A stretch of 64,000 bases of DNA, taken from contig NZ_CP095073.1 of NCBI RefSeq assembly GCF_022919095.1, forward strand, positions 558,001 to 622,000. The letters are read 5' to 3'. The notes beneath the pieces were generated by a model. It did no database searches, had not been told where the DNA came from, and saw only the letters and a program-made list of their open reading frames with translations. This DNA comes from Halobacillus salinarum (GTDB lineage: Bacteria; Bacillota; Bacilli; Bacillales; Halobacillaceae). Shown here piece by piece: positions 47,923-59,717 of this stretch (position 1 is its first letter; each line of letters begins with the position of its first letter). Position numbers and translations under genes: made by a program.

Positions 47923-48789
47923 ATGCTTGCATTCAAAACGCTCAATGAGGTGCCCCTTAAAGAAGCGGCTGAGATTTGGAATTTATGTTTTGAAGGGTAT
48001 TCCATGAATGTTTCTGTCACTACTGAAGGGCTGATTCAACGGTTCACAGCTGATGGGCTGTCTGTTGAACTTTCTTTTATTGCTTACAAGGATCACAAGC
48101 CGGCCGGCATCGTGCTGAACGGAATCCGGGAGCAGCAGGGGAAAATGCGCGCCTGGAATGGAGGGACAGGCATCCCTGTTTCCTATCGGGGGAAAGGCTT
48201 AGGCAGGGAGCTGATTGAACATGCCTTGCAGCTTTATCAAGAGCGCGATGTAACCACAGCCAGTCTGGAAGCGCTCAGCGATAACGGGAGAGCGATTAAG
48301 CTCTATGAAAAAATGGGTTATAAAAAGATAGAGACTCTGCTTTTTTTACAGCAGGAAGGTACACTTCAAACAGCTGCAAACCAGCAGGGTTTCCAGTTAG
48401 AGACGTCCATCGCTTCACAAGCTCAGTACCTAAAGTTTTCTCCTAAGCGTGTGCCGTGGCAATGTCAATGGCCGTCGCTCCGTCTGGACGGTGAGCTTGC
48501 CGTCGTGAAGAAGGAAGGAGAAGTGCTTGCTTATCTGTTATATAAACGGCGCTATGACGAAGAGGGCAGGTTGAAAACGATTCTTTTGTTTCAAACAGGC
48601 GGGGAGGAGCAGCATCCAGCCTATCGAGAAGCTCTGGAGTTTGGACTAGGGCGGATCTTTCAGCCGCGCATCCATTGCAAGCGGATGACGTTTAATTTTC
48701 CTGAATCCAGCTGTACCGCTGTAAAGCTCTTGAAAGGTCGAGGATTTGAAACGAGCATGCGACAGGTTTATATGGAGAAAAAACTGTAA
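47923..48789 (+). CDS. GNAT-family N-acetyltransferase
   Basis: The true start is ATG 47923 after GGAAGGAGAAG; the long upstream frame overlaps the divergent exporter gene. The 288-residue product has an acetyl-CoA-binding motif A in GGTGIPVSYRGKGLGRELIEHALQL (R/Q-x-x-G-x-G/A type) followed by NGRAIKLYEKMGYKKIE. The last 120 residues form a second, divergent GNAT-like half. Substrate cannot be told. Single gene ended by the hairpin at 48792-48826. Confidence 0.87.
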   Translation: MLAFKTLNEVPLKEAAEIWNLCFEGYSMNVSVTTEGLIQRFTADGLSVELSFIAYKDHKPAGIVLNGIREQQGKMRAWNGGTGIPVSYRGKGLGRELIEHALQLYQERDVTTASLEALSDNGRAIKLYEKMGYKKIETLLFLQQEGTLQTAANQQGFQLETSIASQAQYLKFSPKRVPWQCQWPSLRLDGELAVVKKEGEVLAYLLYKRRYDEEGRLKTILLFQTGGEEQHPAYREALEFGLGRIFQPRIHCKRMTFNFPESSCTAVKLLKGRGFETSMRQVYMEKKL

Positions 48790-48791
48790 AA

Positions 48792-48826
48792 AAAGACGGC
48801 TCGGAAGATTAACTCCGGCCGTCTTT
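48792..48826. terminator. Bidirectional terminator
   Basis: AAAGACGGC (48792-48800) / GCCGTCTTT (48818-48826) with a CGGA/TCCG inner stem; between convergent GNAT and symporter genes. Confidence 0.85.
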
Positions 48827-48833
48827 CATTTGA

Positions 48834-50444
48834 TTAAACGATTTTTGAATATTCTTCTTGCGTGTGATTTGCCGGTTTAGTAAAACTCATGCAGGCAATG
48901 AACAAACCGGATACAATCAGTGTTAACACAAGTCCGAGTAAACCCGAACGGTATAATTCGTGAAAGAAACCCGCGGTGAGAAGGATTAAAACGACTGCTC
49001 CAGCTAAAGCATACGTGCCCAGATGCTTGACGGATCCTTTCCATTTCCATTCGTTAGAAGAATCAAGCAGGCTGATGAAAACAATGGTCACGATGTTGGC
49101 GATCATTCCGATCCACACCGGATGGATGTTCAAATAAAAGCCATTAATCGCCCAGCCGCCAAGGTGGTACCAGAGAAGGCCGGCGGCAGAGCCGGTAAAT
49201 AAGGAAACAAAAGCGGCCCGCTTCGTTACGACCGGCCAAAAAATAGCTGCAACAACTGGAGCGAAGGTGGCAGAGTTCCGCGTCACCCAGGCAAGCACAT
49301 TCCACCATGCCGATTGTTCTGCACGCAGCATAGCAAATCCGATCATAAGCAGAGTTAATAACAGCAGGGACCATTTCGTGTACTTGACCAGCTGCTGTTC
49401 AGTTGCTTTCGGGTTGATTGCCTTCCCGACGTCCCGGCCAAGACTGGTTGCTCCGGAAAACTGACACGGAGCCCCCCAGCTGAGCGCTGCTGCCCAGAAA
49501 CCGAGGAAAAACAATCCAACAAGCGGGGCGGGAAGTGTATCCATCAAGTACATAGGAACGGCGATCAACCCACGTGTTTCTCCAGGGACAGCTTGGGCTG
49601 CAGCAAGCCCGAATAAAACCGCGCCGGCAATTAAAGGAATACCTAACAGAGAAGCATAAAGCAGACCGTTACGTCCCTGTTTAGCCGTTTTGCAGGAAAG
49701 TGCCATTTGGAAGGCGGCCTGGGCAAGGATGACATTGAATAAAAACGTGCCAAACCAAGCAAGGATGGTTTGCATTCCGACACTGCCGACATGGGCATAC
49801 TGAGGTTTTTCCTGAAACAATTCCTTCAGTCCGTCGACCCCTGGATTTACAAAGAAAGCGTAGGTGCCGATGGCAAGCATGATGAAAAAGATCACGACAT
49901 TGCTTAATTGCGTCAATCCAACGGACCACATGCCGCCGAACTGTAAATATGCAAATAACAAAGTCGCAGTGAGCACGACAGACCATACAAGAGAAATGCC
50001 TGTAAAAACCGAGAGCGCTGAAGCAAAAGCTAATGCGGTAGCGACCGACCACATCGGAAAAGTGAATGCCGTAATGGCACCGGCTAAGCCGCGGACTTTT
50101 TCTCCGTACCGGTCTCCGAGCAGACCGGAAATCGTGACAAGTGCTTTTTTCCTGAAAGGTGCAATCAATACTAAAGCGATAATCAGGACCTGCACGGTTT
50201 CTGCAACCCCGTACCACACAGCTGAGACTCCGTGAAGATAACTCAATTCAATAATGGCAATATAAGAGGAACCCGAAAACAATCCCGTGATACAAACGGT
50301 AACAAACAGCGTATTAAAGCTGCGGCCGCCTACAAAATAGCCATTTCCATCGGCGGCTTTTTTCCTTGCGACCTGGCTGATAAAAATTAAATAAACGGTA
50401 TAAACAAGAGCAAACCCGATAAACCAATAACCAACCGTCGTCAT
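48834..50444 (-). CDS. Sodium:solute symporter (SSS family) under SAM riboswitch control
   Basis: A 536-residue, 13-14-span Na+-coupled transporter. SSS family segments include KAADGNGYFVGGRSFN at the end of the first loop, GLFSGSSYIAIIELSYLHG, and LSWGAPCQFSGATSLGRDVGKAINPKATEQQ followed by the KYTKWSLLLLTLLM span. The substrate of SSS proteins (sugars, proline, pantothenate, others) is not readable from sequence. The leader, however, carries an S-box riboswitch with terminator and antiterminator. Genes under S-box control serve methionine or cysteine supply or SAM recycling, so methionine or a methionine precursor is the leading candidate substrate. ATG 50444 follows AAAAGGAGG. Confidence 0.88.
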   Translation of the reverse strand: MTTVGYWFIGFALVYTVYLIFISQVARKKAADGNGYFVGGRSFNTLFVTVCITGLFSGSSYIAIIELSYLHGVSAVWYGVAETVQVLIIALVLIAPFRKKALVTISGLLGDRYGEKVRGLAGAITAFTFPMWSVATALAFASALSVFTGISLVWSVVLTATLLFAYLQFGGMWSVGLTQLSNVVIFFIMLAIGTYAFFVNPGVDGLKELFQEKPQYAHVGSVGMQTILAWFGTFLFNVILAQAAFQMALSCKTAKQGRNGLLYASLLGIPLIAGAVLFGLAAAQAVPGETRGLIAVPMYLMDTLPAPLVGLFFLGFWAAALSWGAPCQFSGATSLGRDVGKAINPKATEQQLVKYTKWSLLLLTLLMIGFAMLRAEQSAWWNVLAWVTRNSATFAPVVAAIFWPVVTKRAAFVSLFTGSAAGLLWYHLGGWAINGFYLNIHPVWIGMIANIVTIVFISLLDSSNEWKWKGSVKHLGTYALAGAVVLILLTAGFFHELYRSGLLGLVLTLIVSGLFIACMSFTKPANHTQEEYSKIV

Positions 50445-50464
50445 AATAAATCCTCCTTTTCAAT

Positions 50465-50497
50465 AAAAAACGGCCACTTCAAAAGGAAGAGGCCGTT
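50465..50497 (-). terminator. Riboswitch-controlled terminator and overlapping antiterminator
   Basis: On the minus transcript AACGGCC pairs with GGCCGTT around a CTTCC/GGAAG-type inner stem, followed by a U run (A run 50465-50470). The alternative hairpin GGAAGAG / CTCTTCC (50499-50505 with 50485-50491) would block it and shares bases with the 3' strand of the aptamer P1. Confidence 0.85.
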
Positions 50498-50502
50498 ACT
50501 CT

Positions 50503-50606
50503 TCCTCATCTCTCAGACTTCTGTCTGCTGGAGTTAGCACCTTGTCATTATGGACAGGTTGCTGCAGGATCGCGGGACCAAGTTCCTCCCCTGCTCTTGA
50601 TAAGGA
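50503..50606 (-). promoter_or_regulatory. SAM-I (S-box) riboswitch
   Basis: Read on the minus strand: TCCTTATC at the 5' end pairs with GATGAGGA at the 3' end (P1). The conserved S-box sequences are present: CTTATCAAGAG (50604-50594), GGGGAGG, GCAACC, and AAGGTGCTAACTCC followed by CTGAGAGATGAG. S-adenosylmethionine binding stabilises P1 and favours the terminator at 50465-50497, turning the symporter gene off when SAM is plentiful. Confidence 0.95.
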
Positions 50607-50704
50607 TGTATTCCGTATAAATTTGTCTAACACATTACCGCAGTAAACAGATAAAGTCAATGCGATTTCATGAATATAGGTTGAAAGAAGGATTCATCTA
50701 TTTG

Positions 50705-51751
50705 TTAGTCTGCTACTTTGGACGGAGCAGTGCTTACGGCTTTGCTGGTTGATTCTCCCGGCACCAGCTTTGCTGGGAGGAGAATTTCCTGACACGGTTC
50801 GTCCTTGTTTGCCATCCGCCAGATCAATCGGTTAACGGCGGTCCGTCCAAACAGTTTAAGGTCAATATCCATCGAAGTAATTCTTGGTGTAGAAAGCTGC
50901 GAGAGCTGGCCGTTATCGAAACTGCAAATAGAAACATCATCAGGCACATGAATCCCGAGCTGCTTTAATCCGGAATTGACTAGATAACCAAGGCCGTCGT
51001 TGACGCAAAACCAGGCCGTGGGCTGTTTGGGGAGCTGTTCGATAAAGCGGTTAATGACGTCATCTTCTTCACGGGCATCTTTAAACAAAAATTCCTCGTT
51101 TACAGGAACGTTGTAATCCTTCAATGCGAGGAGAAACCCTTCCAGACGCTCCTGGTAGCTCGGAGAAAAATCTACGTTTCCTACATAGCCGATATTCTTA
51201 TGGCCAAGCTCTAATAAGTGCTGGGCGGCTCTGTATGCCCCGAAGCGGTTATTGGTAAGAATGGCATCAGCTTCAATATTAGGGTGATGGTGATCGACTA
51301 GAACAGTCGGTACACCTGTATTAATGACTTCCTGAATATAATCATTGTTTAAATGGGAGAGAATCAATACGCCATCAACCGAACGATCTTTTAAAAAGGA
51401 TGGCAGCGATAAGCTTTCTTCGGACTTTTTATTAATGGACTGTAATAATAAGTTTTTCGTTTGTTTCTGGGCTTCTTCTTCAACCGTCAAATAGATTTCA
51501 CCAAAAAAGCTTTTCATGGAGAAAGCAAATTCAGAAGCAATCAATCCAATATTTCCTGATACAGCAGACTCCGCGTCGTTTGCCTGAGAGCCTTTCGGGA
51601 CGTAGTTGTATCCCAGCTTATCGGCGGTTTTGTAAACTTGTTTTCTTGTAGCATCACTGACTCCGGGTTTTCCGGTTAATGCCTGGGATACAGAGTTCTT
51701 CGATATATTCAGCTCATCGGCAATATCCTGCATGGTCACTCTTTTTGCCAT
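50705..51751 (-). CDS. LacI-family repressor of the mannoside operon
   Basis: A 348-residue regulator with N-terminal HTH VTMQDIADELNISKNSVSQALTGKPGVSDATRKQVYKTADKLGYN and a sugar-binding-protein-like domain (GVPTVLVDHHHPNIEADAILTNN; DDVSICSFDNGQLS). The start at 51751 (MAKRVTM) is preferred over 51787, because the extra N-terminal twelve residues overlap an operator and are atypical for LacI proteins. It is divergent from the mannoside genes, and three TAACGTTA-centred sites lie in between, one beside its own start. A manno-oligosaccharide is the likely inducer. Confidence 0.9.
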   Translation of the reverse strand: MAKRVTMQDIADELNISKNSVSQALTGKPGVSDATRKQVYKTADKLGYNYVPKGSQANDAESAVSGNIGLIASEFAFSMKSFFGEIYLTVEEEAQKQTKNLLLQSINKKSEESLSLPSFLKDRSVDGVLILSHLNNDYIQEVINTGVPTVLVDHHHPNIEADAILTNNRFGAYRAAQHLLELGHKNIGYVGNVDFSPSYQERLEGFLLALKDYNVPVNEEFLFKDAREEDDVINRFIEQLPKQPTAWFCVNDGLGYLVNSGLKQLGIHVPDDVSICSFDNGQLSQLSTPRITSMDIDLKLFGRTAVNRLIWRMANKDEPCQEILLPAKLVPGESTSKAVSTAPSKVAD

Positions 51752-51787
51752 AAAAGGTTCAACCTTTCTATTAGATGATTCGTTCAT

Positions 51788-51949: not shown

Positions 51950-52094
51950 GTAATTTGTAATCATGGGCCAGTTATCATTATCTTACTAAAATTTGTTAAT
52001 CGCTTCCAATTCATTGAGGAAGCTTTACTTATTCACAAACATGAAAGGGTTTTCAGAAAACTACTATATGAAGCTTGGAGGAGAAAAAAGCATT

Positions 52095-53159
52095 ATGAAT
52101 GTAATTCGATTTCAGGAGAATCCACTGATCACTCCGCAGCAGGTGAAGCCTTATCACAATGACCATGAAGTGATTGGCGTTTTCAACGCAGGAGTAGCTG
52201 AATACAATGGCGAAGTCCTTTTGCTTCTAAGGGTGGCCGAACGCCCTTTGACAACGGACAAGGAAGTAATTAAAGCCCCTTATATTGATTTATCGAGTGG
52301 AACAGGAAAGCTGCAGATGGCAGAGCTCGATCTAAAGGATCCCCGCTATGATTTTTCCGATCCACGATCGATTACTTACGCAAAGAGTGGGAGAGCAGCT
52401 TATTTAACTTCTCTTTCCTACATTCGAATCGCCCGCAGTAAGGATGGCAGGCATTTTACAATTGATGATGAACCATTGATCTACCCTGAGAACGAACGGG
52501 AGGTGTGGGGCATTGAAGACCCACGGGTCACACAGATCGATGATACGTATTACATTCAATATAGTGCAGTTTCGCCTGAGGGTATCGGAGTTGGCCTTAT
52601 TTCAACGAAAAACTTCTCCAGCATGAAAAGGCATGGATTAATGCTTCATCCAGAGAATAAGGATGTCGCCATTTTTCCGGAAAAAATCAATGGCAAGTAT
52701 TACTGTCTTCACAGGCCTGTTCCTAAAGGCATCGGACGTCCGGAGATTTGGATTGCCGAGTCTGATAATCTGCTTTACTGGGGAAATCATCAATATTTAC
52801 TGGGATTAAGTGAAGACGGCTGGGATAACGGGCGAATCGGCGGCGGAGCCGTTCCCATACGGACTGAAAAAGGCTGGCTGGAAATTTACCATGCGGCTGA
52901 TAAAAACAACCGTTACTGTCTCGGAGCCGTGCTGCTGGACCTTCAGAACCCGGCACAAATCCTTGCTAAAACAAAAGAGCCCATCTTAACGCCTGAGAGT
53001 GATTATGAAACAAGCGGATTTTTTGGCAATGTTGTTTTCACTTGCGGGGCTGTCGTGGAGGAGCAGGAAATTACAGTTTATTATGGAGCTTCTGACACTT
53101 CCATGGCCGCAGCCACGATGAATCTTGAAGATATTTTTTCACAACTGACTTATCGCTGA
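52095..53159 (+). CDS. GH130 beta-mannoside phosphorylase family enzyme
   Basis: A 354-residue five-bladed beta-propeller. Typical GH130 stretches: FNAGVAEYNGEVLLLLRV, YDFSDPRSI, GIEDPRVTQIDDTYYIQYSA (the Asp acting as proton donor), LHRPVPKGIGRPEIWIAESDNLLYWG and GGAVPIRTEKGWLEIYHA. GH130 enzymes phosphorolyse beta-1,4- or beta-1,2-mannosyl bonds, giving mannose 1-phosphate. ATG 52095 with GGAGGAG upstream is chosen; the longer frame starts at 51993 without support. First gene of the operon. Confidence 0.9.
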   Translation: MNVIRFQENPLITPQQVKPYHNDHEVIGVFNAGVAEYNGEVLLLLRVAERPLTTDKEVIKAPYIDLSSGTGKLQMAELDLKDPRYDFSDPRSITYAKSGRAAYLTSLSYIRIARSKDGRHFTIDDEPLIYPENEREVWGIEDPRVTQIDDTYYIQYSAVSPEGIGVGLISTKNFSSMKRHGLMLHPENKDVAIFPEKINGKYYCLHRPVPKGIGRPEIWIAESDNLLYWGNHQYLLGLSEDGWDNGRIGGGAVPIRTEKGWLEIYHAADKNNRYCLGAVLLDLQNPAQILAKTKEPILTPESDYETSGFFGNVVFTCGAVVEEQEITVYYGASDTSMAAATMNLEDIFSQLTYR

Positions 53160-53173
53160 AAGGAGGTGCCGTC

Positions 53174-54121
53174 TTGTACCGCGTGGAAAGTTTGTTAACA
53201 GAATACCGGGCAAACCGTTTAGTAAAAGAAGCGGAAAAACTGATTTTTGCTGGGGTAGGGAAGAGAGATGTCTACAACATTACAGCTCCTTTTGAAGACA
53301 ACGGAAAACGGATCATCGCCGGAAGAGTCGAAGCACGCGACTCGGAAAATTCAGAGGTCGTTTTCTTCTCTGAGCAAAATGGAGAATGGCGTCCTGAACC
53401 GGGACTCCCAACGTATTCCTTGCAGGATCCGTTTGTTTCGAAAATCCATGATGAGCTCGTGTTTGGCGGGGTGGAGATTTTTCCTCATCCGACAAACGAA
53501 GGCGCGTTATCATGGCGGACCGTTTTTTATAAAGGGGATGGATTATCCGGCTTAACCCGTTTTGCATCAGGACCTGATGGCATGAAGGATATCCGCTTAG
53601 TCGAGCTTGAGGATAAAAGCATTGGTGTGTTCACAAGGCCTCAGGGAGAAAAAGGCGGCCGGGGGAAAATGGGCTATACTTCTATATCCCAACTCGAAGA
53701 GCTGCAAGCGGAAACCATCGCTGAAGCTCCGTTGATTGAATCACATTTCGCTGATGAAGAATGGGGCGGGGCTAACGAAGTACGGCTTTTGAAAAATAAC
53801 GAAATAGGCGTGCTCGGTCACATGGCAGCGTTTGATGAAGCCGGGAACCGTCATTATTATCCCATTGTATTTCAATACGATCCTGTGCATAATCAAATTT
53901 CCCATATGAAAATCATTGCTTGCCGTGATGATTTTCCAGAAGGAGAAGCGAAAAGGCCGGATTTAACCGACGTGTTGTTCAGTGGTGGCATCGAACGCTT
54001 AAACAACCAGGAAGCTGCACTTTATGTAGGAGCGAGTGATGCGGAAGCATACAGAGCCGTCATTTTTGATCCATTTGTCAGTTTGGAACAACAAAACAGC
54101 TTATTTAGGAGGGGAATGTAA
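53174..54121 (+). CDS. DUF1861 family protein
   Basis: A 315-residue protein, predominantly beta-strand, opening AEKLIFAGVGKRDVYNITAPFEDNGKRIIAGRVEARDSENSEVVFF. It contains several repeated DxxxR...F-type blades (LQDPFVSKIHDELVFGGVEIFPHP; WGGANEVRLLKNNEIGVLGH). It looks like a five-bladed propeller related to GH43/GH130-like proteins, and I believe it is DUF1861. No activity is established to my knowledge. It sits between the phosphorylase and the ABC binding protein and has TTG 53174 after AAAGGAGGTG. A mannoside-processing or binding role is inferred from position. Confidence 0.82.
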   Translation: MYRVESLLTEYRANRLVKEAEKLIFAGVGKRDVYNITAPFEDNGKRIIAGRVEARDSENSEVVFFSEQNGEWRPEPGLPTYSLQDPFVSKIHDELVFGGVEIFPHPTNEGALSWRTVFYKGDGLSGLTRFASGPDGMKDIRLVELEDKSIGVFTRPQGEKGGRGKMGYTSISQLEELQAETIAEAPLIESHFADEEWGGANEVRLLKNNEIGVLGHMAAFDEAGNRHYYPIVFQYDPVHNQISHMKIIACRDDFPEGEAKRPDLTDVLFSGGIERLNNQEAALYVGASDAEAYRAVIFDPFVSLEQQNSLFRRGM

Positions 54122-54123
54122 TC

Positions 54124-55437
54124 GTGAAGAAAAATAACTGGGCACGTTTAATCGTGATGGTAGTAGTGATTGCACTTGTAGCTTCAGGCTGTAAATCTGG
54201 AGGCGGCGAGGGAAGTAAAGATGGAAGTGTAAGCATTCAATTCTGGTCTGCGCCGAACCCGACGCAGCAGGCGTTTTGGAAAGAGATGGCGGATGAATAC
54301 ATGAAGGAAAACGATAAAGTCACCATTAAAGTAACACCAATGCCTGAGAGCCCGTCGTCAGAAGCAGGTATCCAGTCGGCGATTGCTGCGGGTAATGCGC
54401 CGACGATTTCTGAAAATATCTCCCGTGGGTTTGCTGCTCAATTAGCTGCGTCGAGTGCGATTGTGCCGCTTGAAGAGTTCGATGGCTATGATGAATTAAT
54501 CAAAGATCGGAAAATGACCGACACCATTTCCACATGGAAATTTGCTGACGGCAGCCAGTACGTGCTGCCTATTTACACAAACGCAATGCTGTTCAGCTGG
54601 CGAATGGATATTCTTAAAGAACTTGGATATGAAGAACCTCCGAAGACGTACAGTGAAGTCCTTGAAGTGGGAGAAAAATTAAAAGAAAAGCATCCGGATA
54701 AATTCCTCTGGGCCCGTGCTGATCTAGTTAAGCCTACGTGGTGGGCTAGATGGTTTGATTTCTTCATGCTTTATAACGCCGCGTCTTCAGGCAATAATTT
54801 CGTCGAGGGCAGCAAATTTATTGCTGACGATCAAGCGGGTATCGACACATTATCATTTATGAGTGATTTAAGTAACAAAGACCTGCTGTTAACCCGGGAA
54901 GCGACCGATCCGTTCGAAACCGGTCAATCGATCATGATGGATTTAGGTCCGTGGACCTTTACTTACTGGGCCGATAAGTTTCCGGAAATGAAGTATGGCG
55001 AGACTTATGAGCTTTCTATGCCGCCAGTACCTGATGATATGAATCCTGAGAACGCAAAAACCTTTGCCGATACAAAAGGGCTGTCCATTTACGCTTCGGC
55101 AACAAAAGAAGAGCAGCAGGCCGCGTTTGATTTTGTTAAATGGGTCTATTCAAATCCTGAAAATGATTTGAAGTGGCTGAAGGACACTAGTCTTCCACCT
55201 GCACGTGACGATTTGTCCAGTAATGACACCTTTACCGCTTATTTCGAGGAAAACCCTCAATTAGTGAAATTTGCTAAAAATATTCCAAATGCTGTACCTC
55301 CGATTGATAATGAAAAGACGGTAGAAATTCAAGAAGCGATTGGAAAACAGGCGGTTAATCCTGTAGTTAAAGGAGATAAAGATCCGGAAGCTGCATGGAA
55401 GGACATGAAGGATGCTATTGACGGGGTGTTGAAGTAA
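54124..55437 (+). CDS. ABC transporter sugar-binding lipoprotein
   Basis: A 437-residue extracellular solute-binding protein (cluster 1, family SBP_bac_1). The lipoprotein signal ends in lipobox VASGC. Mature-domain marks are IQFWSAPNPTQQAFWKEMADEY near the start and FDFVKWVYSNPENDLKWLKD near the end. It captures an oligosaccharide outside the cell for the two permeases encoded next. The gene set points to manno-oligosaccharides. Start GTG 54124 after AGGAGGGG. No ATPase is encoded here, so a shared MsmX-type ATPase from elsewhere is required. Confidence 0.92.
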   Translation: MKKNNWARLIVMVVVIALVASGCKSGGGEGSKDGSVSIQFWSAPNPTQQAFWKEMADEYMKENDKVTIKVTPMPESPSSEAGIQSAIAAGNAPTISENISRGFAAQLAASSAIVPLEEFDGYDELIKDRKMTDTISTWKFADGSQYVLPIYTNAMLFSWRMDILKELGYEEPPKTYSEVLEVGEKLKEKHPDKFLWARADLVKPTWWARWFDFFMLYNAASSGNNFVEGSKFIADDQAGIDTLSFMSDLSNKDLLLTREATDPFETGQSIMMDLGPWTFTYWADKFPEMKYGETYELSMPPVPDDMNPENAKTFADTKGLSIYASATKEEQQAAFDFVKWVYSNPENDLKWLKDTSLPPARDDLSSNDTFTAYFEENPQLVKFAKNIPNAVPPIDNEKTVEIQEAIGKQAVNPVVKGDKDPEAAWKDMKDAIDGVLK

Positions 55438-56316
55438 ATGAATAGAGAAAATGCGAGGCTGGGGTGGCTGTTTGCCAGCCCCTACCTCATCTATACAGCA
55501 ATTTTCTTTTTATTTCCGTTATTATGGGCGACTTATTTAGCTTTTACGAACTGGAATTTAATTGCGCCGGATTATGATTTTGTAGGCGTTCAGAACTTTA
55601 TTGAAGCTTTTTTCAGTAAAAGTGTTAGAGCCGCTTTTTTTGTCACGTATAAATTTTTAGTGATGTTCGTGCCTATTGTCATTGCGGGTGCCTTGTTTCT
55701 TGCCGTCATAATTCATGCACTGCCTAAATTTAAAGGGCTGTTTTCTGTGGCCTTCTTCCTGCCTTACTTGGCATCAGGAGTAGCGTCAGCGATTGTCGTG
55801 AATGGAGTGCTGTCTTACAACAGTCCGTTAAACATCTGGCTCAGAGGGACATTTGGCCTGGATATCGACTGGCTCGGCTCCACCATTCTTGCTCCATTAA
55901 TCATTGCATTAATGATGGCATGGAAATTCGCAGGCTACTATGCACTTTTGTTTGTAGCCGGACTTGAGAGCATTCCTAAGGAAATTTATGAAGCGGCGGC
56001 CATCGATGGAGCCGTGGGCTGGAAACGGTTTTGGCACGTGACGATTCCGATGCTGTACCCATCTTTTTATACGGTCTCCATCTTAGCCGTGGGGTTAATG
56101 TTTGGGATTTTTACGGAACCTTATGTATTAACCGGCGGGGGACCGGAACTATCCACCCATACGTGGCAGCTGGAGATCTATAATCAAGCCTTTCAACAGC
56201 TGAATGCGGGTTATGGAACGGCGATCGCGGTCATCAATTCTGTCGTCACGTTCGGATCCATTCTAGTGTTCCGTAAAATTCTCGAGAAGTGGGGGGCAAA
56301 ACATGGCTGGGAATAG
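55438..56316 (+). CDS. ABC sugar permease, MalF/LacF type
   Basis: A 292-residue inner permease with six membrane segments. The EAA loop reads YEAAAIDGAVGWKRFWHVTIPML near residue 180, the site that contacts the ATPase. The start abuts the stop of the binding-protein gene, and it overlaps the next permease by 14 bases. Forms the channel together with the next protein. Confidence 0.93.
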   Translation: MNRENARLGWLFASPYLIYTAIFFLFPLLWATYLAFTNWNLIAPDYDFVGVQNFIEAFFSKSVRAAFFVTYKFLVMFVPIVIAGALFLAVIIHALPKFKGLFSVAFFLPYLASGVASAIVVNGVLSYNSPLNIWLRGTFGLDIDWLGSTILAPLIIALMMAWKFAGYYALLFVAGLESIPKEIYEAAAIDGAVGWKRFWHVTIPMLYPSFYTVSILAVGLMFGIFTEPYVLTGGGPELSTHTWQLEIYNQAFQQLNAGYGTAIAVINSVVTFGSILVFRKILEKWGAKHGWE

Positions 56317-57133
56317 AACGTTCAAATTAACGCTGCTGTATATTTTAGCCTCTGTCGTCTTGGTTATCATGGTTGCTCCTTACGTGTATATGGTGCTCGG
56401 ATCTCTTGCCCCCTGGGATCAAGTGGATCGGAAAATCATTCCTACAGAACTTACGCTGAAATCGTATAAATGGCTGTTTTTTGGCGGCGAAGGAGTGCTG
56501 GCACGACCGTGGCTGCGGGCGTTATTTAATAGTGTCTTTGTTACGCTGACTTCCACGATTTTAATGATGGCGACGGCCATTCTTGTCGGTTATTCATTAG
56601 CGAAATTAAGATTTAAAGGCAGCCGGTTTATCAACAACGTAATTTTATTTCAAATGTTTTATCCGGCCATCATTCTGCTCATCCCTCTGTTTTTAATCAT
56701 TCGTTATTTTGGGATGTACGACACGTATTGGGCGATGATTCTGCCGAAAGCAGTAAATTTGTGGGCGATCTTTATGTACACGAATTTCTTCCGCAGTCTC
56801 CCTGATGAACTGCTTGAGGCAGCAAAGATGGATGGAGCCAGCCAGTTTAAAATTGTCTGGAGGGTCGTCCTGCCGATGTCCCGTTCGATTACCACTATTA
56901 TCTTCCTGTTTTTATTTATGGAACGCTGGGTGGAGCTCTTATGGGATATGCTTGTCGTCAACAGCGAGAATATGCTCACATTAAACGTGCTGCTCGCGCA
57001 GATGTTTGGCCCTTATGGAGGTTACCCAGGTCCGATGTATGCAGCTTCCGTTCTGCTGACGATGCCTATTCTGATTCTGTTTATTATCTTTAGTAAAAAC
57101 TTTAAGGATGGCATGCAGTTTGTCCTGAAGTGA
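56303..57133 (+). CDS. ABC sugar permease, MalG/LacG type
   Basis: A 276-residue second permease with six membrane segments. Its EAA loop is LLEAAKMDGASQFKIVWRVVLPMS, and the protein opens FKLTLLYILASVVLVIMVAPYVYMVLGSL as MalG-type proteins do. Translationally coupled to the MalF-type gene. A terminator-like hairpin follows (57140-57173), though the mannosidase gene beyond it is likely still part of the same unit by readthrough or has its own promoter. Confidence 0.93.
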   Translation: MAGNRTFKLTLLYILASVVLVIMVAPYVYMVLGSLAPWDQVDRKIIPTELTLKSYKWLFFGGEGVLARPWLRALFNSVFVTLTSTILMMATAILVGYSLAKLRFKGSRFINNVILFQMFYPAIILLIPLFLIIRYFGMYDTYWAMILPKAVNLWAIFMYTNFFRSLPDELLEAAKMDGASQFKIVWRVVLPMSRSITTIIFLFLFMERWVELLWDMLVVNSENMLTLNVLLAQMFGPYGGYPGPMYAASVLLTMPILILFIIFSKNFKDGMQFVLK

Positions 57134-57139
57134 TCGTTC

Positions 57140-57173
57140 AAGGTGCCGAGCCTCAAGGCTGGGTGCCTTTTTT
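57140..57173 (+). terminator. Hairpin between the permease and mannosidase genes
   Basis: AAGGTGCC...GGTGCCTT outer arms (two G-U pairs) and GAGCC/GGCT inner arms around TCAA, followed by six T. May reduce transcription into the mannosidase gene. Confidence 0.7.
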
Positions 57174-57210
57174 CATTTTAGTCGTGTAACATTTACGAGG
57201 AGGTAGAGGT

Positions 57211-59717
57211 ATGAATTTATCAGAAGGCTGGAAGCTGCACGATGTTGAGGAAGGAAAGGTCAGCGATTTGACAGTAGCGGATCCCGATTATATTGACCAT
57301 TACTGGATGAAAGCAGAAGTTCCGGGTGACGTCCACTCCACATTGCTCGCTCGTAACTTGATTGAAGATCCGTTCTTTGGACACAACGACCTTAAATGTA
57401 AATGGGTGGAGGATAAAACGTGGTGGTACAGAAAAGAATTTATCTTTTTTAGAAAAGATCACCCGGGCACACGGCAGCAGTTGACCTTTGAAGGTTTGGA
57501 CACTTTTGCCACGATTTATGTCAATGGAGTCGAACTTGGATCAACGGAAAATATGTTTATCGCTCATCACTTTGATGTCACCCGTGAGCTCAGGGAAGGC
57601 AGAAACGTCATCGCTGTCAAATTTGCCTCGGTTGCCGAACGAGTCAAAGAAAAAGAAAAAAACTACTGGGCCGGATTTGGCAAGGATAGAATATGGACGA
57701 GAAAAGCCCAATACCATTTCGGCTGGGACTGGGGTCCGCAAATCGTCACCTGTGGAATATGGAGAGACGTCTTACTAGAAACAAAACAGGAGGCGGAAAT
57801 CGAAAATGTCTATGCAAGAACGAGAGAAGCTTCTAAAGAAGCGGCAACCATCCAAGTGGACGTGGTTACAAGCAGGCTGGCCGATGTGAACGAGGAGCTT
57901 TCGCTCACGGTGTTAGTAAAAGGCAAGGAAAAGACAGATTCCTATACCGTTGAGGCAGGAAGGGACGGCAGGACTACGGTCCAGTTAGACGTCGCAAATC
58001 CTGAATTATGGTGGACGCATGACCTTGGCGACCCGTTTTTATATGAGCTTGAAGTCCTCCTGGCCAAGGATGACGCAGTGCTTGACCATTACAATTGCAC
58101 TTTCGGCATTCGGGAGCTTGAGCTGAAACAAAAAGATGATGAAGGCAATGAGCGGTTTACTTTTGTATTAAACGGTGTAGAACTGTTTGCGAAAGGGGCC
58201 AATTGGATTCCGGTAGACAGCTTTCCTGGATCAGTGCCAGATTCACGGTATAATCATCTAATCGGACTTGCGAAAGAAGCCAATATGAATATGCTGCGCG
58301 TCTGGGGCGGGGGATCTACGAGAAGGATATCTTCTATGAAGAATGCAGCCGGCACGGCCTATTAGTCTGGCAGGATTTTATGTTTGCCTGCGCGTTATAT
58401 CCGGATTACAACAAAAACTTCATGAATAACGTAAGAGAAGAAGCAGAAGCGGTCATCACGAAGCTGAGAAACCACCCGTGCTTAGCGTTATGGTGCGGCA
58501 ATAATGAAAATGACTGGCTGTATGAAGTGGAATACGCCTCAGGCCGGATCGACACTCCTTTTTACGGGGAAAAAATTTATCATCAATTGCTGCCAGAGCT
58601 GTTAAGTAAGCTGGATCCGAACCGCTTTTACTGGCCGAGCAGCCCGTATGGCGGCAACGATCATGATTCTGAAGAAATAGGAGACCGGCATAACTGGCAG
58701 GTGTGGCACGGGAACATTGAACCGAGGAAATTCGGTGAGCCGGCCACGCAGAATTACAGCGTCGAGGGCGTTTCTTTTAAAAACTATAAACAGGATTTTA
58801 CGCTGTTCAGCAGTGAGTTTGGCATGCATGCCTCCGCGAATGCTTTCACTTTAAAAAAATACCTTCCCGCGGGAGAGTTTTATTGGGGAAGCGCGGAAAT
58901 GGCTTATAGGAATAAGGACGATCATCATCACAAAGGTTTGCTGCTCATGGAAGGATATACAGGAATACCGCAATCGATCAACGAATACATCGATTACTCG
59001 ATGCTGACACAGGCGGAAGGGCTGAAGCTCGCTGTGGAGCATTACCGCAGGCAAAAGCCTGTAACGAGCGGAGCGCTCATCTGGCAGCTCAACGATTGCT
59101 GGCCGGGAACAAGCTGGTCGATGATCGATTATGAGCTGCTCCCGAAGGCTTCATACTACTACAGCAAAAAATTCTTTGCACCAAAGCACCTGAACTTAGA
59201 CGTGGCACCCGGTGGAACGATTACCCTTTGGGTTTTGAACGATTTGATTGCCGAGTGGAAGGATGTGGTTGTGCTGGAAAGCTATTCTTTTCAAGGGGAA
59301 AGGATATGCAGGAAAGAAATCCCGTTCGAACTCGGAGCAAATCAAACACTCAAGCTGGCAGAGTTTGCGGAAGCAGACGTTTTGAATGGCTGTCTCCCGG
59401 AGGAAATAGTCGTCTGCGTGAGCAGTTCATCCGGCGCATGTGACAAAAATCTCTATTATTTAAAGGATCAGAAAGACTTAGTCCTCCCGCCGACCGTCCT
59501 ATCCGTCACAAGGGTACATGAAAAAAATGAAATTCATATTTCGACGGACGGTCTGGCAAGGTTCGTTAAGCTTATTCCTTATGACAAATCCATCATTACC
59601 TCCGACAACTTTTTTGATCTCCTCCCGGGAGAAACAAAAAAGGTTTCGGTGAAACAACTGGATGATGCCGGTATGGATTTAGATCAAATAGAGGTAACTT
59701 GCTTAAACAAACAATAA
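57211..59717 (+). pseudogene. GH2 beta-mannosidase interrupted by a frameshift
   Basis: The first part (57211 onward, RBS GAGGAGGTAGAGG) reads as a GH2 N-terminus (HYWMKAEVPGDVHSTLLARN) and reaches MNMLRVWGGG near 58308. The same protein continues in another frame as IYEKDIFYEECSRHGLLVWQDFMFACALYPDY and on to 59717. One extra G in the G run 58309-58313 joins the parts into 835 residues, a normal family length. Catalytic glutamates are both present in the second part (CGNNEND acid/base; FSSEFGMH nucleophile). It would release mannose from manno-oligosaccharides imported by the ABC system. As written it would be truncated before the active site. True mutation or sequencing error cannot be told apart here. 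Confidence 0.9.

Follow-up and report, generated by a model that had tools for sequence, protein, structure and literature searches.

Which compound a sodium:solute symporter (SSS) carries can seldom be read from its sequence. In the 64,000-nucleotide stretch of Halobacillus salinarum DNA analyzed here (hereafter the window), an SSS-family gene lies behind an S-box, raising the question of what a symporter under SAM control would import. We consider it likely that the locus couples a SAM-I attenuator to a Na+ symporter importing a compound that refills the methionine/SAM pool. The S-box is real, conserved and otherwise ordinary; its target is unusual.

A cmscan search of the whole window returned RF00162 as the sole Rfam match at cut-off, covering model positions 1–108 of 108 with 86.8 bits (gathering cut-off 44.4; E 3.4e-19). 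Consistently, the free minimum of the leader (50461–50606; ViennaRNA) contained P1–P4 and the terminator at −53.5 kcal/mol, and enforcing the antiterminator gave −43.3 kcal/mol, a cost of ~10 kcal/mol. When the transcript ended at 50483, with the terminator 3′ arm not yet made, the same program returned the antiterminator with P1 open (−40.2 kcal/mol). The antiterminator shares bases with the P1 3′ strand (50503–50507) and with the terminator 5′ arm, so the two states are mutually exclusive. The match and the folds bear out the first-pass annotation, which had placed a complete S-box with a terminator and an exclusive antiterminator at 50465–50606, the span that aptamer and terminator cover together. 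As judged from sequence, predicted fold and conservation, the leader is thus confirmed as a SAM-I riboswitch of the transcription attenuation type.

A longer piece reaching the ribosome-binding site (50445–50620) had a minimum of −55 (z −2.46; 4 of 200 shuffles equally stable) that kept the terminator and lacked P1, because the aptamer 5′ end paired with bases past the terminator; those competing bases are transcribed only after read-through. The symporter gene begins 24 nt past the terminator hairpin, its ATG at 50444 following AAAGGAGG. The terminator hairpin was absent from the five sites given by a simple consensus terminator scan. A promoter scan of 48700–50760 yielded no sigma-A promoter reaching threshold; the candidate between the LacI-type gene and the symporter matches 8 of 12 consensus bases and therefore falls under that threshold.

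Table 1 Features of the symporter locus in the window
Feature	Position	Strand	Basis and remarks
Sodium:solute symporter gene, 536 aa, SSS subfamily	48834..50444	(-)	PF00474, 75.2 bits
Shine-Dalgarno sequence AAAGGAGG	50452..50459	(-)	sequence; 7 nt before ATG
Terminator U-rich tail	50461..50468	(-)	sequence
Intrinsic terminator hairpin	50469..50497	(-)	-15.6 kcal/mol; inverted repeat I3
Antiterminator helix	50483..50507 (50499-50507 with 50483-50491)	(-)	minimum-energy fold, transcript cut at 50483
SAM-I (S-box) aptamer, P1-P4 complete	50503..50606	(-)	RF00162 match and free minimum fold
Candidate sigma-A promoter, TTGACT - 17 nt - TAATGT	50632..50660	(-)	by eye, 8/12 consensus bases
LacI-type regulator gene, upstream of symporter	50705..51787	(-), same direction as symporter	ORF list and Pfam

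SAM binding by this aptamer is predicted from its RNA family and the direction of regulation from its architecture, of which SAM-dependent shut-off is the ordinary reading. When SAM is plentiful, the aptamer would bind it, P1 would form and the antiterminator 5′ arm would be held; with P1 formed, the terminator would form and the symporter would not be made. When SAM is low, the antiterminator would form and the symporter gene would be transcribed. The LeuT-fold Na+ symporter would then import a compound refilling the methionine/SAM pool, with methionine itself, its oxidised or methylthio relatives and other organosulfur or methylated precursors as candidate cargoes. An OsmC-family thiol protein may act alongside the symporter in many relatives.

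Similar to other transcription-terminating SAM-I riboswitches of Bacillota, the leader combines a full aptamer, a terminator and an antiterminator with a target fitting methionine/sulfur supply; unlike theirs, the target is an SSS-family symporter. Parts of PMC11477304 and PMC2940859 report an ABC methionine importer and the NhaC-type MetT as S-box transporters, in agreement with the first-pass remark that known S-box transporters are mostly of other families. The present symporter differs from MetT in not being an NhaC protein, as SSF is its only Pfam match at E 0.001. In a term search, "methionine" and "riboswitch" were absent from the body of a review published in 2021 on prokaryotic SSS members (PMC7918813), and no description of an S-box upstream of an SSS gene was found among the matches listed in the open-access literature.

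The SSS assignment of the downstream gene, also made in the first pass, holds at 75.2 bits against a PF00474 cut-off of 22.8. No NCBIfam cut-off was reached by the protein (score/cut-off: putP, 36.4/515.5; panF, 57.6/328.05; PRK10484, 78.4/401; VC_2705, 59.7/320.75). An AlphaFold model (38 sequences) had a pLDDT of 80.3 and, among solved structures, matched CHT1 best (9bim, Z 39.8 over 460 residues); SiaT followed the same fold (5nva, Z 35.3 over 447 residues), and SGLT, NIS and SMCT1 were also matched. As modelled, the symporter has the SSS-type LeuT fold. It shares this fold with the solved SSS/SLC5 proteins (CHT1, bacterial CHT 9rws, SiaT, SGLT, NIS and SMCT1) but differs from them in having 14–19% identity and a choline cage mostly not retained in an alignment that is not firm. 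A PDB profile search with the symporter found nothing at E 1e-10 and seven chains at 0.01. Residues E82 and W132 are invariant across 38 sequences. Coupling to Na+ is predicted from membership of the SSS family.

To place the pairing in a wider setting, 40 orthologue loci were compared (the window, 26 loci from a genome scan and 13 from further genomes), and 12 more came from a phylum search. Searching with the symporter gave hits in 15 genomes out of 44 in the family and in 8 out of 398 in the class (E 1e-100); the phylum search, with the L090 protein as query, gave hits in 13 of 299 genomes (E 1e-60), each count including the own genome. Each genome was counted once, except that two contigs of one Arthrobacter metagenome-assembled genome (MAG; L054 and L055) both stand within the 40. 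Repeats (L060–L064 and L073–L079) and shorter copies (L059 of L091; L065–L072 of L080–L087) were not counted.

An S-box at the Rfam cut-off preceded the symporter in 32 of the 40 loci, namely the window, 18 of the 26 genome-scan loci and all 13 further loci, which excludes a chance pairing. Of the nine further loci with SSS matches in the Halobacillus salinarum genome, none carries an S-box within ~1.5 kb. Among Bacilli loci, assigned by organism name or kinship, the count is 32 of 34, and the two without an S-box at cut-off belong to Bacillus aerolatus (L047) and Domibacillus (L048). The six non-Bacilli loci comprise three from groundwater MAGs, the two Arthrobacter contigs and one from Cryobacterium. 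Given that the S-box pairing recurs in related bacteria, the symporter is probably a SAM-repressed importer serving the methionine/SAM pool.

The expression platforms are conserved as well. All 32 S-box leaders had a terminator; in 27 of them, a perfect antiterminator helix (at least 6 bp) overlapped both P1 and the terminator. Among 96 leader shuffles, which preserve base composition only, one formed a terminator at least as stable as −11 kcal/mol, and it lacked such an antiterminator. The strict antiterminator test failed in L044, L045, L046, L049 and L088; folding gave an imperfect helix in the first four. Between the window clade and a clade at ~60% identity, the platforms are unlike in sequence and identical in topology. 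On a tree, the S-box label needs three changes (29 rows with, 7 without); this tree was built by a quick method, has very long outgroup branches, was used for the S-box count alone, leaves out L034 and L037, and has the Arthrobacter copy entered as lacking an S-box. Alignment A1 leaves out L036 and L055.

Could the riboswitch be a decayed or non-functional copy? Decay does occur among relatives, as Bacillus aerolatus retains only an S-box remnant. The window S-box is full length, scores 86.8 bits and has both terminator and antiterminator, and we find a decayed copy here scarcely credible. The remnant itself (L047:3785–3888) scored 31.7 bits with model R1, with which alone it was visible; by eye, it retains some of the core together with the P1 3′ strand and has lost the P1 5′ strand.

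None of the 12 phylum-search orthologues, from other Bacillota, has an S-box at the Rfam cut-off or with model R1, indicating that the role of the protein is not everywhere bound to the riboswitch. In these loci (L255–L266), the only regulatory match at cut-off was a T-box in L263, ~3.7 kb ahead of the symporter, where it precedes ORFs resembling proB-proA-proC by eye. Likewise, no regulatory Rfam match at cut-off was found in L047, L048, L051–L053 or L057; L048 carries a Bacillaceae-1 RNA. In the Arthrobacter MAG, a SAM-type aptamer (L054:3363–3466) scored 43.4 bits against the cut-off of 44.4 (E 1.4e-6). This MAG has at least two RF00162 hits (150 of 376 candidates scored), both before the OsmC-SSS pair on its two contigs, and the riboswitch together with OsmC-SSS resembles a riboswitch-operon unit gained by horizontal transfer. 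Among 394 actinobacterial genomes, the symporter was found in one, the query-centre genome itself, and within the class of one groundwater MAG it was found in 3 of 117. A search of plasmids gave no match at E 1e-40.

In Halobacillus salinarum the symporter stands alone, with no OsmC or met genes adjoining. Elsewhere, 22 of the 40 loci have an OsmC-family gene on the same strand and no more than 150 bp away (12 downstream, 10 upstream), with no adjacent OsmC in the other 18; in seven loci (L080–L084, L086 and L090), the OsmC gene sits between S-box and symporter. Pfam confirmed the OsmC identity in L044, L050, L053, L054 and L057. L045 and L046, which are outside the 22, have a third type of OsmC that precedes the S-box and lies ~0.3 kb upstream of the symporter. 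A second OsmC subfamily, barely like the first (25 of 150 residues identical), adjoins the symporter in 10 of the 12 phylum loci (4 upstream, 6 downstream; Pfam for two). As a control, OsmC paralogues away from the symporter gave no Rfam match at cut-off in the 20 loci examined (50 OsmC-positive genomes). The adjacency suggests that OsmC and symporter work together, and its recurrence with two dissimilar OsmC subfamilies offers a concrete sulfur/methyl-metabolism setting for OsmC proteins.

An OsmC gene downstream of a SAM riboswitch is also described in part of PMC5069961, which connects the bhmT-osmC-ordL genes of Ca. Pelagibacter ubique with SAM riboswitches and reports osmC mRNA as the most induced transcript of sulfur-limited exponential cells, 50-fold up under DMSP limitation. 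That system differs in its riboswitch classes (SAM-II/SAM-V) and in belonging to an alphaproteobacterium, and "symporter" is absent from the main text of the paper. Ca. Pelagibacter osmC connects OsmC with SAM supply independently of the present loci.

In genome G354 (L089), S-box, SSS gene, metQ, metN and metI stand in a row, with one S-box in 16 kb; MetQ is above the TIGR00363 cut-off, and MetN (399.2 of 499.7) and MetI (188.6 of 212) are best matches under their cut-offs. Two orthologues without an S-box, L265 and L266, are co-directional with genes for a URO-D methyltransferase, an MtgC-like corrinoid protein, an MtgA-like methyltransferase and TauE. L266 also has a corrinoid activator, and its SSS ORF is truncated (337 aa, matching over residues 1–254 only). 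The URO-D and corrinoid proteins tested stayed under their NCBIfam cut-offs, and the two methyltetrahydrofolate methyltransferases exceeded theirs. Corrinoid methyltransferase clusters (URO-D type MtaA/MtbA/CmuA-like, MtgC-like, MtgA-like) can thus contain SSS orthologues; in contrast to the window, these two clusters have no S-box, and the window has no such methyltransferase genes. In further phylum loci, a GcvH gene lies near the symporter (L259–L261, L263 and L264), as do dihydrolipoyl dehydrogenase (L259–L261 and L264) and LipS1 (L261 and L264). OsmC beside the symporter, the row of S-box, SSS and metQ-metN-metI, and the two orthologues in corrinoid methyltransferase clusters are new here.

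At least 11 S-boxes were found in the genome (150 of 246 candidates scored), one before the symporter; the other ten precede metI-metC-metF-metH, a BHMT-like gene, two cysH operons, metNPQ, two metE types, metY, msrA and metK. These targets were assigned by eye, and two were checked by search: the BHMT-like product (160.3 bits to 1umy) and MsrA (TIGR00401, 197.1 bits; cut-off 108.1). Four more symporter-bearing genomes (G441, G442, G447 and G448) have at least 43 S-boxes. G447 (at the L044 locus) and G448 each have one S-box with an SSS gene behind it, and both genes belong to the symporter's subfamily; by eye, none was seen in G441 or G442. Own genome included, 3 of 54 S-boxes have an SSS target, with 41 of the 43 downstream stretches inspected by eye; in G447, the stretches behind 17 of 19 S-boxes were inspected, some ended by a contig edge.

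Regulation and neighbours together suggest methionine/SAM supply as the substrate class. The first-pass proposal of methionine or a sulfur precursor as substrate is thus upheld in its general idea by the conservation, the G354 row and the other S-box genes, and not as regards methionine itself. A narrow reading, in which the symporter carries methionine as such (L-methionine and perhaps D-methionine or free methionine sulfoxide), is possible but on balance doubtful. It would suit the G354 row, the msrA S-box of all 44 family genomes, and Pseudalkalibacillus caeni, which has both msrA and SSS-osmC under S-boxes. However, metNPQ (assigned by eye) already stands behind an S-box in Halobacillus salinarum, so methionine looks redundant; every family genome has the msrA S-box whereas 15 of 44 have the symporter, so msrA does not single out the symporter; and plain methionine leaves the OsmC and corrinoid-methyltransferase neighbours unexplained. 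Methionine sulfoxide as the specific substrate, tried by way of the msrA S-box, was dropped as not discriminating. The OsmC and corrinoid-methyltransferase contexts leave room, by inference, for a methylthio or methylated compound. Speculatively, and with rather low expectation, the symporter might represent a new SSS subfamily that imports a methylthio or methylated organosulfur compound (e.g., a methylthio-carboxylate) and works with an OsmC thiol protein. Sulfur or methyl groups would pass to methionine under a SAM riboswitch in Bacilli and into corrinoid/tetrahydrofolate methyl transfer in other Bacillota, and the riboswitch-OsmC-transporter module would also have moved into an actinobacterium.

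Two readings draw on choline-related chemistry, and both appear very improbable to us. If the symporter imported glycine betaine or a similar methyl donor for BHMT-dependent methionine synthesis, the BHMT-like gene under an S-box in Halobacillus salinarum, a choline transporter as the closest solved fold and the Ca. Pelagibacter bhmT-osmC-ordL arrangement (part of PMC5069961) would find a place. Co-occurrence speaks against it: a BHMT-like protein occurs in 39 of 44 family genomes, in 14 of 15 with the symporter and 25 of 29 without; among 33 further genomes with the symporter, only one has it (E 1e-30). Betaine/BHMT as a general partner was rejected on these counts. The symporter could also be a choline or osmolyte transporter that happened to gain an S-box, as CHT1 is the best PDB match by both sequence profile and fold. 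The CHT1 choline cage consists of W62, Y91, W141 and W254 (part of PMC11589582); our alignments, not firm at identity below 20%, keep only W141 (W132 here) and place F56, E82 and A241 at W62, Y91 and W254, respectively. Moreover, the genome has a separate CHT relative (L027:1255–2916) whose product matches the bacterial choline transporter 9rws with 1127.5 bits over residues 1–553, and 32 of 34 Bacilli loci have an S-box. Choline as substrate is disfavoured by the cage residues and the separate CHT relative. Returning to supply of the methionine/SAM pool as the preferred reading, the conserved SAM riboswitch narrows an SSS subfamily to this role and to a short list of candidate compounds.

Some further observations concern the surroundings of these genes. 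Beyond the LacI-type gene, the ORFs at 51993–58365 of the window resemble a glycoside-utilisation locus by eye, with two hydrolase- or phosphorylase-like proteins, an ABC sugar transporter and a beta-mannosidase-like protein. Across the family, msrA is preceded by an S-box in 44 of 44 genomes (own genome, L019; L195–L238), so methionine repair looks SAM-controlled throughout it. Of the 30 loci examined for the BHMT-like gene (own genome, L013:5434–6480; L094–L123), 24 have an S-box no more than 1.5 kb away from it. In Pseudalkalibacillus caeni (L174), an S-box also precedes a gene for a molybdopterin oxidoreductase (PF00174, 90.6 bits) with weak similarity to MsrP (29 bits against a cut-off of 207).
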